64,000 nt of DNA from Sulfobacillus thermotolerans (lineage in GTDB: Bacteria > Bacillota > Sulfobacillia > Sulfobacillales > Sulfobacillaceae). Position 1 is the first letter of the stretch; every line of letters starts with the position of its first letter. The stretch is from contig CP019454.1 of NCBI GenBank assembly GCA_002951815.1, positions 496,001 to 560,000 of the forward strand. Reading direction: 5' to 3'. This document shows positions 10,980-12,996 of the stretch, in pieces. Made by a program: the position numbers and the translations under genes. The notes beneath the pieces were generated by a model. The model had not been told where the DNA came from, did no database searches, and saw only the letters and a program-made list of their open reading frames with translations.

Positions 10980-11108
10980 GCCATAGAGGTTGGAAGCAGC
11001 TTTGCAATGATTCGTCATAAGTTGTGAATCTTTCTGTTAAGACGCGAAGACGAAATGGCGATTGCCATGATAGACTATTCTCAAGGGATTGAGAACGGAG
11101 GGGTGCGC

Positions 11109-11570
11109 GTGGTACGACTATCATCCGTATACCGGAAGCTGGAAGAGGGGTCGAAGCGGCTGACGCCTCAACGCGAACTGGTCATCCGCATCTTCTCTGA
11201 GCACCCGGGGGAGCATCTCTCGGCGGAAGAAGTGCATCAGCTCGTTAAAAAGAAATTTCAGGACATCGGTTTGGCGACGGTCTACCGGTCTTTGGAATTA
11301 TTAACCCACCTCGAAATTTTGACGCGGATTAATTTTGATGATGGGCGGGCGCGGTATGAATTTAACCAAGAAGAAACTCACCGCCATCACCACCTCGTTT
11401 GTGTGCGCTGTGGACGTGTCGAGGAATATGGGGAAGATTTGCTGGATACGCTGGAAACGCGGATATTTAAAGAACGTGGCTTTACCGTGCTTGATCATGA
11501 ACTAAAATTCTATGGCATTTGCCATGCTTGCGCGGCCAAACGCGGAACCGATAAGGGGGAGAAGATATGA
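11109..11570 (+). CDS. Fur/PerR-family metal or peroxide regulator
   Basis: A 153-residue Fur-family repressor. The N-terminal winged helix has RLTPQRELVIRIF and LATVYRSLELL (recognition helix). The metal part shows HHHLVCVRCGRVEE (first CxxC of the structural zinc) and the terminal CHAC (second CxxC). I cannot decide between Fur, PerR and Zur by eye. The GTG at 11109 lies five bases after GGAGGGG; an in-frame GTG at 11103 and the upstream ATG-rich region fit worse. Its stop overlaps the next gene by ATGA, so it is translationally coupled with an ArsC/Spx-type protein, pointing to redox or metal stress control. Confidence 0.87.
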   Translation: MVRLSSVYRKLEEGSKRLTPQRELVIRIFSEHPGEHLSAEEVHQLVKKKFQDIGLATVYRSLELLTHLEILTRINFDDGRARYEFNQEETHRHHHLVCVRCGRVEEYGEDLLDTLETRIFKERGFTVLDHELKFYGICHACAAKRGTDKGEKI

Positions 11571-11923
11571 CGACGCAGCTCTATTGTTATAGACGGTGAA
11601 GCACCTGTGCTAAAGCGCGAGCGTGGCTTGGCGCACACCGTATTGCCTTTTCCGAACGGGACTTGATTGAGCAGCCTCTGAACGTTGAAGAACTGAGGGA
11701 GTTGGCTCAGAGGGTGGGGGGCATTGCAGCCATTGTATCCAAAAGGAGCCCTGCGTATAAAGGGTACGTCCAGCAGATTCAAGATGAGGCCGATTGGCTG
11801 GAAGCCATGGCTAAAGAGCCGCGGTTGATTCGTCGCCCTATTTGGTTCGTGAATGGTCACCACCGGATTGGATTTGATGTGGATGCTTGGGAGAGCGCCA
11901 TAGAGGGACATCAAAATCCGTGA
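11567..11923 (+). CDS. ArsC/Spx-family thioredoxin-fold protein with in-frame UGA at the catalytic Cys (candidate selenoprotein or pseudogene)
   Basis: The frame starts at an ATG that overlaps the fur stop (ATGA) and has GGGGGAG upstream. It runs MTTQLYCYRR, then TGA at 11597-11599, then STCAKARAWLG and on without a stop to 11923. Read through, it gives 118 residues, the normal ArsC/Spx size. Family members such as YusI have CxTC at this place, so the UGA replaces exactly the first, redox-active Cys, giving U-S-T-C. Downstream family features are intact: SERDLIEQPLNVEEL, VSKRSPAYK, and the late RRPIWFVNG with its conserved Arg-Pro. A hairpin suited to a bacterial SECIS follows the UGA. The alternative is a Cys-to-stop mutation or sequence error. 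The last 13 bases overlap the convergent oxidoreductase gene. Confidence 0.72.
11600..11637 (+). promoter_or_regulatory. Candidate SECIS-like hairpin after the UGA
   Basis: Directly 3' of the UGA (11597-11599), TGTGC (11606-11610) pairs with GCACA (11633-11637), and AAGC (11613-11616) pairs with GCTT (11626-11629). The apical loop GCGAGCGTG begins with G about 18 bases after the UGA and contains GU. Bacterial SECIS elements place a loop G at about this distance. The fold was drawn by hand and the sequence is also coding, so this is suggestive only. Confidence 0.4.
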
Positions 11924-12996
11924 TAGGATCCCCAATAGGCATTTTGCGGATACCCACGCTGTTCCCAATAGCCTAACTGGTCGTGGGGAGAAAACGCGAT
12001 CCGCACCAGCCACTTTAAGGACTTGTACCCATACATGCCGGGGACGAGCAAGCGCAGCGGATATCCTTGCGAGGCCGCCAATGGCTGACCATCCATGGCG
12101 TAGACCAATAGGGGTTGATATTGGTGAATTTGTTCCGCGCTTAAAGACTCTGTGTAGACGCCGTCGCCGGAAAAGAATAGGACCCACGGCGTGTGCTCGG
12201 GTTGCCATCCTACAGATTCGAGGAAATGCAAGAGGTCAATGCCCTCCACCTGCACACCATTCACGGCCCACCCGGTCACACATTCGAAGTTGAGACGCCT
12301 TGAGGTGGGAGGCATGTGCTGCAATTCATCTAGACGATACGTGCGCTTCACGGGGCTATCGACCCAAAGCCGCCACGTCTGTGGTGTGAATTGAGGGTAG
12401 CCATCAATGACGGTGTAAGGCACAAAGCCGGGTAAGGCTCCTTGCGTGCGCCCTTGCTGAAAGATCCGCCCGCTCAACATCATGAGTAAATTGGGTAAGG
12501 CGATGACAAAAGGGGCGGTGGCAACTGTGGCTAAGATCCAGTGCAGAGCGCGCCGTCTTGATGAGGGGGTAGCGCGTGACAAGGGTGTCGGCCGATGGGT
12601 CAGCAGGTGCGTAAGCACCCAGATGACCAATCCCGCGGCGCTCGCTCCATGCACCACCGTGGCGATTGACCGTGTCCACGAGGGTCCTATAAACAGGGCC
12701 ACGCCACTGACGCAGAGCAGCACTAAGAAAAAGAGGGCCCAGCGGGTAAAGGCCGGTTGTGTTCTGCCCACCGGGGCTGGCCAGGGATAGAAGCGCGCGG
12801 ACCATCCCAACAAGGCGAGGGCATAAATAATGCCTCCCCACTCGTGAATCGTTTGGATCGCCGGAAACCAAGGTCCGAGCGCGCGCCGCCAACTCGACAG
12901 AAAGAGACCAAATCCTGTGGCGACAAATAGTCCGACCCAAAGCGCGTGACGCCAATGGCGCTGGGAAAAGGATGTAGGGGGCCTTTTCGGTATCAT
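11911..12996 (-). CDS. Membrane-anchored molybdopterin oxidoreductase (sulfite-oxidase fold) with N-terminal cytochrome b-like domain
   Basis: A 361-residue fusion. Residues 15-190 hold about five membrane segments with His residues placed as in b-type cytochromes (IHEWGG near 49, VVHGASAAG near 118, THLLTH near 130). Residues 200-361 form a sulfite-oxidase-type molybdenum domain: the Mo-ligand Cys in FECVTGW (about 239), GDGVYTES, and the cofactor block LLVPGMYGYKSLKWL. This resembles an MsrQ-like heme part joined to an MsrP-like catalytic part in one chain. The substrate is unknown. It starts in ATGA overlap with the upstream beta-lactamase-fold gene and lies just downstream of mobA-mobB-moeA, which supply its cofactor. 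Confidence 0.82.
   Translation of the reverse strand: MIPKRPPTSFSQRHWRHALWVGLFVATGFGLFLSSWRRALGPWFPAIQTIHEWGGIIYALALLGWSARFYPWPAPVGRTQPAFTRWALFFLVLLCVSGVALFIGPSWTRSIATVVHGASAAGLVIWVLTHLLTHRPTPLSRATPSSRRRALHWILATVATAPFVIALPNLLMMLSGRIFQQGRTQGALPGFVPYTVIDGYPQFTPQTWRLWVDSPVKRTYRLDELQHMPPTSRRLNFECVTGWAVNGVQVEGIDLLHFLESVGWQPEHTPWVLFFSGDGVYTESLSAEQIHQYQPLLVYAMDGQPLAASQGYPLRLLVPGMYGYKSLKWLVRIAFSPHDQLGYWEQRGYPQNAYWGSYHGF

Follow-up and report, generated by a model that had tools for sequence, protein, structure and literature searches.

A Probable Selenocysteine-Containing Spx/ArsC-Like Protein Encoded Behind a Fur-Family Gene in Sulfobacillus thermotolerans and Its Relatives

In a stretch of 64,000 nucleotides of the genome of the acidophile Sulfobacillus thermotolerans (contig CP019454.1, positions 496,001 to 560,000; hereafter the window, whose own numbering is used below), the gene at 11567-11923 of the forward strand very probably encodes a small selenoprotein with an Spx/YffB-like oxidoreductase fold, in which selenocysteine (Sec) would be inserted at the UGA of codon 11 by means of SelB and a hairpin. 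We consider this the best explanation of the comparative data. A preliminary description of the window had already read the in-frame UGA in this way, and the reading is now supported by computational observations on the conservation of the UGA, the exchange of Sec and Cys, the hairpin and the Sec machinery, together with a predicted fold. Counterparts in dozens of related bacteria almost certainly make, likewise, an intact protein with Sec at the reactive site.

Results

The Locus and Its Neighbors

The gene is the second cistron behind a Fur-family regulator gene (11055-11570, forward strand; 128 bits against Pfam FUR). Its start ATG (11567-11569) overlaps the stop of the Fur gene in an ATGA, and the ribosome-binding site AAGGGGGAG lies 5′ of the start, the two elements together covering 11545-11570. 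The only internal in-frame TGA is at 11597-11599, in codon 11; it is followed by 107 open codons and by the terminal TGA at 11921-11923. Read through the TGA, the product has 118 residues, with U11 in a U-S-T-C motif. Reading of the sequence confirmed the coupled frame, interrupted once at codon 11 and then open to its end, that had been described before.

In 28 of the 30 Sulfobacillales loci examined, the gene is preceded by a Fur gene, nearly always as its immediate neighbor. The proposed pairing with this regulator is conserved across the order, though it was not found at the Chloroflexota homologs. No obvious common neighbor appeared among 10 loci examined outside the Sulfobacillales, and no conserved neighborhood was seen in Chloroflexota. 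The convergent molybdopterin oxidoreductase gene (11911-12996, reverse strand; Pfam Oxidored_molyb) lies outside the unit; of the other loci among the 30 examined, just one has it beside the selenoprotein gene.

The genome carrying the gene is one contig of 3,317,203 bases, and the length given for the S. thermotolerans Kr1 genome is 3,317,203 bp (PMC6803676). According to the genome paper (PMC6803676) and a later paper (PMC7409299), no arsenate reductase gene (arsC) was identified in Kr1, so that the frame 11567-11923 was either not called or not recognized.

The UGA Codon Across Homologs

A homolog was found in 35 of 41 relatives belonging to the same genus, family or order, with 40-55% identity. 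Read at the DNA level, the codon at the site was exactly TGA in 36/36 Sulfobacillales homologs (the 35 relatives and the window genome), an agreement at one codon that is far beyond chance. The scan of a species-genome collection gave 60 loci, from Sulfobacillales and also from Chloroflexota (Dehalococcoidia, SAR202) and Syntrophaceae; all 58 that reach the site carry TGA, many of the Sulfobacillales loci being from the same genomes as the 41 relatives. Members further away within the class mostly have TGA, and the others TGC or TGT. In the tree of the wider family (101 members), the site is TGA in 89, TGC in 10 and TGT in 2, which accounts for every member; the Sec/Cys labels require at least five changes on the tree. 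Within a single genus, two members that are 84.7% identical carry TGA (L137) and TGT (L142).

U11 aligns with Cys10 of Bacillus subtilis Spx and with Cys12 of Escherichia coli R773 ArsC. The in-frame UGA is found, as had been claimed, at the catalytic Cys of the family, a redox site where distant relatives have Cys codons in the same column. Ten close pairs, compared over the sequence 3′ of the TGA, gave dN/dS values of 0.06-0.28, which indicates purifying selection after the TGA; an eleventh pair had reached synonymous saturation. Decay of the frame was sought in related genomes and none was found, the Sulfobacillales homologs keeping both the TGA and the frame. The U-S-T-C motif first described is present in the window protein, but its second Cys is not conserved in the order: the 36 Sulfobacillales members have Cys (23), Ser (9) or Ala (4) at this position, that is UxxC, UxxS or UxxA.

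The class-level relatives (L117-L153) hold many more UGA-containing Spx-like genes, so that the group extends far beyond the order. Also, a more distant ArsC-like paralog occurs in two Sulfobacillales genomes (L150 in G023 and L154 in G025); one of them has TGA at the active site, the other a codon for Cys.

A SECIS-Type Hairpin After the UGA

A putative hairpin of the bacterial SECIS type lies within the coding region (11615-11634, forward strand). It is composed of a 5′ arm (11615-11622), a GUG loop (11623-11625) and a 3′ arm (11626-11634) with G11630 bulged. The stem begins just 3′ of the UGA, at a distance of 16 bases, and the apical loop starts with G, as is expected of a bacterial selenoprotein gene. 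Folded alone, the window RNA was no more stable than shuffled sequences (z = 0.25); folding of a single sequence is uninformative here, and the evidence for the proposed hairpin comes from comparison among homologs.

When 30 loci were aligned, a 7-pair version of the hairpin had 77.6% of its cells paired. Compensatory double changes occupied 17 cells vs 5.1 in shuffles, a count reached by none of 500 shuffles and also far above slid controls. The codons of the hairpin are frozen at A-R-A-x-L (Arg CGA 22/23, Ala GCG 30/30, Leu CTC/CTT 30/30). Other conserved columns show at most a weak codon bias, except for two Ser columns, which cannot be judged fairly because Ser codons fall in separate boxes. 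The hairpin is mostly missing from Cys-codon members: the uninterrupted stem counted from the loop averages 5.0 bp in TGA members vs 0.8 bp in Cys members, and the mean folding energy is -10.7 vs -4.4 kcal/mol. The stem is shifted by a few bases in some Chloroflexota members. The SECIS-like hairpin with a G-led loop noticed earlier is therefore backed by compensatory changes and by constraint at synonymous sites. When the genome was searched with a covariance model of the hairpin region, the window element alone was recovered (other matches had E > 2), so that the SECIS elements belonging to other selenoproteins have different sequences.

Selenocysteine Machinery and the Decoding of Codon 11

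A genome search for the four components of bacterial Sec insertion, proposed earlier as a check, found all of them: selA (544 bits), selB (354 bits), selD (357 bits) and tRNA-Sec(UCA). Among the relatives, two genomes of one genus (g4: G010 and G019, 96-97% complete) have neither the gene, nor a true selA, nor tRNA-Sec. The complete genome G035 has the Sec machinery and no homolog; the gene is therefore dispensable. With a strict tRNA scan, selA and tRNA-Sec were both undetected in two carriers, G028 (71% complete) and G036 (97%), and a few other draft carriers showed one of the two and not the other. We attribute these gaps, without proof, to draft assemblies and strict filters.

The selD gene (L021, genome C1 about 198,200-199,140, reverse strand) has an in-frame TGA of its own, in SGUGCK. 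Just 3′ of this TGA is a strong stem-loop with a GGA loop, GTTAGGTCC-GGA-GGACCTAAC, which differs from the hairpin at 11615-11634. SelD itself is thus likely a selenoprotein, and the gene at 11567-11923 is not the sole candidate of this genome. Also, the proteins reported as upregulated in a proteomic study of S. thermotolerans include a peroxiredoxin named as selenocysteine-containing (PMC7409299).

A second gene scored above the Rfam tRNA-Sec cut-off (L003 1497-1587, reverse strand; genome C1 about 184,370-184,460). This tRNA has a GCA anticodon, a long variable arm, an 8-bp acceptor and U73, and fits the described selC*-type tRNA-Cys (PMC7609411). Several relatives also have second matches to the tRNA-Sec family, with similar scores. 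The gene adjoining the selC*-type tRNA is glutaredoxin-like (L013 4477-4830, reverse strand), with a Cys codon at its active site; its homologous protein in the relative G031 (L156) has TGA at the same position.

UGA readthrough happens in bacteria, and a near-cognate tRNA might place Cys, Trp or Arg instead of Sec at codon 11, in a genome that also has a Sec-like tRNA-Cys. We hold such decoding to be highly unlikely. The anticodon of that tRNA is GCA, which therefore reads UGC/UGU, and the tRNA was rejected as decoder of the codon-11 UGA; the covarying hairpin after the UGA, mostly lost where the codon is Cys, and the absence of the gene from the genus devoid of Sec machinery also speak against near-cognate reading. 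Still less credible is a true stop in a decaying pseudogene. In line with that reading, conventional gene calling would cut the frame in two, and in the published genome of Kr1, 51 pseudogenes are listed and arsC is not. We reject it on conservation and dN/dS: with decay of the stop, TAA, TAG or unrelated sense codons should turn up as well, whereas TGA stands at the same codon in all order homologs, no family member has TAA or TAG there, dN/dS stays low past the TGA and the hairpin is constrained. A genome-wide reassignment of UGA is unsupported, because the selenoprotein gene and its Fur neighbor themselves end in TGA.

Family and Fold

With the TGA translated as Cys, the product scored 45.8 bits against Pfam ArsC (cut-off 24). 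Against TIGR01617 (Spx/MgsR) it reached 73.2 bits, slightly below the cut-off of 75.05, which is passed by the relatives L028 (81.2), L082 (89.1) and L099 (78.2) and not by the others scored. Its scores were 33.6 against TIGR00014 arsC (cut-off 106) and 24 against NF041106 ArsC_rel_Se_1 (cut-off 85), seven relatives giving 27-37 with the latter. The group falls below the cut-offs of both of these catalogued kinds of ArsC-type selenoprotein. At the search threshold, no other ArsC/Spx-family protein was found in the window genome.

The AF2 model of the product has a mean pLDDT of 93.9, and its best matches among solved structures are Spx and YffB (TM about 0.8-0.87), with U11 directly N-terminal to helix 1. 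The arsenate-binding arginines of ArsC (Arg60, Arg94 and Arg107 around the catalytic Cys) are represented by the R94 equivalent alone, R60 being replaced by Ser and R107 by Phe. Thus the protein is Spx/YffB-like rather than a true arsenate reductase.

The window protein shares with B. subtilis Spx (3gfk/1z3e; TIGR01617) the fold (TM about 0.8), the position of the reactive Cys, the kept Arg of the RRP motif and the S-x-[RK]-S region, but it has Sec for Cys, a dispensable second Cys and no C-terminal extension. YffB (1rw1), an ArsC-related protein, has the same size and fold (TM 0.84-0.87), with Sec in the window protein and a low sequence identity (28%) as differences. E. coli R773 ArsC (1i9d) is similar in fold, catalytic Cys position and R94; it differs in R60 and R107, which are not conserved, and its identity is about 20%.

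ArsC-type selenoproteins have been listed since 2005 (PMC1088965, PMC1794560, PMC13188914). The same superfamily includes two kinds of selenoprotein that also have Sec in their motif, the NF041106 proteins (UxxC) and the "arsenate reductase" proteins of the Sargasso Sea (UxxS; COG1393, placed under TIGR00014); they differ from the window protein by the model scores given above, and the available portions of their descriptions mention no Fur operon. Spx and Sulfobacillus are not mentioned in the reviews and method papers searched, and an open-access literature search found no Spx-type selenoprotein. The Spx-like Sec group thus appears not yet catalogued, its separation from the Sargasso Sea sequences being by model score.

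Discussion

The Sec insertion, co-transcription, enzymatic activity and physiological role that we infer are as follows. SelA and SelD would make Sec-tRNA, which SelB, bound to the hairpin just 3′ in the coding sequence, would deliver, so that the ribosome would insert selenocysteine at UGA codon 11. The product would have an Spx/YffB-like fold in which Sec takes the place of the ArsC/Spx reactive Cys at the N-terminus of helix 1. Where the motif is UxxC, a selenenylsulfide could form between Sec and the second Cys; in UxxS and UxxA members, a partner thiol would have to resolve Sec. An internal selenenylsulfide is not the general mechanism, because the second Cys is Ser or Ala in 13/36 Sulfobacillales members. 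The predicted product most likely acts as a selenol/thiol oxidoreductase, perhaps with a role in metal or oxidative stress. The gene is probably co-transcribed with the Fur regulator, and its supply would thus probably be tied to such stress.

We favor this oxidoreductase function, with one serious rival, namely that the protein is an Spx-like redox-switch transcription regulator binding the C-terminal domain of RNA polymerase alpha, Sec replacing the first switch Cys. The closest solved structures include Spx-alpha-CTD complexes, the protein is the only ArsC/Spx-family member found in the genome, and it is coupled to a regulator gene (Fur). However, the protein lacks the C-terminal extension of Spx, the position corresponding to Gly52 of Spx is not fully conserved, and the CxxC-type switch of Spx, with both redox residues kept, is replaced by UxxC here and by UxxS or UxxA elsewhere in the order. 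YffB, for which we know of no regulatory role, also matches at a higher TM-score than Spx. A regulator of this kind is possible, with roughly one chance in several. A wider proposal is somewhat more doubtful: it would see a branch of the Spx family with Sec, widespread and not yet catalogued, in Sulfobacillales, related Bacillota, Chloroflexota and some Syntrophaceae, in which, in Sulfobacillales at least, the Sec switch controls transcription together with Fur, as a selenium-based redox sensor on RNA polymerase.

A Sec arsenate reductase that fills the gap left by the "missing" arsC is less probable again. Membership of the Pfam ArsC family fits such an enzyme, as does the lack of a reported arsC in the arsenic-tolerant S. 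thermotolerans (PMC6803676, PMC7409299). The loss of R60 and R107, with R94 alone kept, makes arsenate reduction unlikely (Spx lacks R60 and R107 too), the TIGR00014 score is far under its cut-off, and no ars gene was seen beside the selenoprotein gene.

The selenol/thiol oxidoreductase that we favor would be the product of a gene apparently missed by standard annotation in an arsenic-tolerant biomining bacterium, Kr1, for which no arsC was reported. Selenoproteins of the general ArsC type are already known, and the Spx-like group is an apparent addition to them: a large group, encoded with UGA in Bacillota and Chloroflexota, whose scores lie under the NCBIfam cut-off for ArsC-type selenoproteins. 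In Sulfobacillales, it reveals a conserved link of a Fur regulator with a selenoprotein. Also, the natural variation between UxxC, UxxS and UxxA within the order, and between Sec and Cys in the wider class, offers a test of what selenium adds to the Spx fold.
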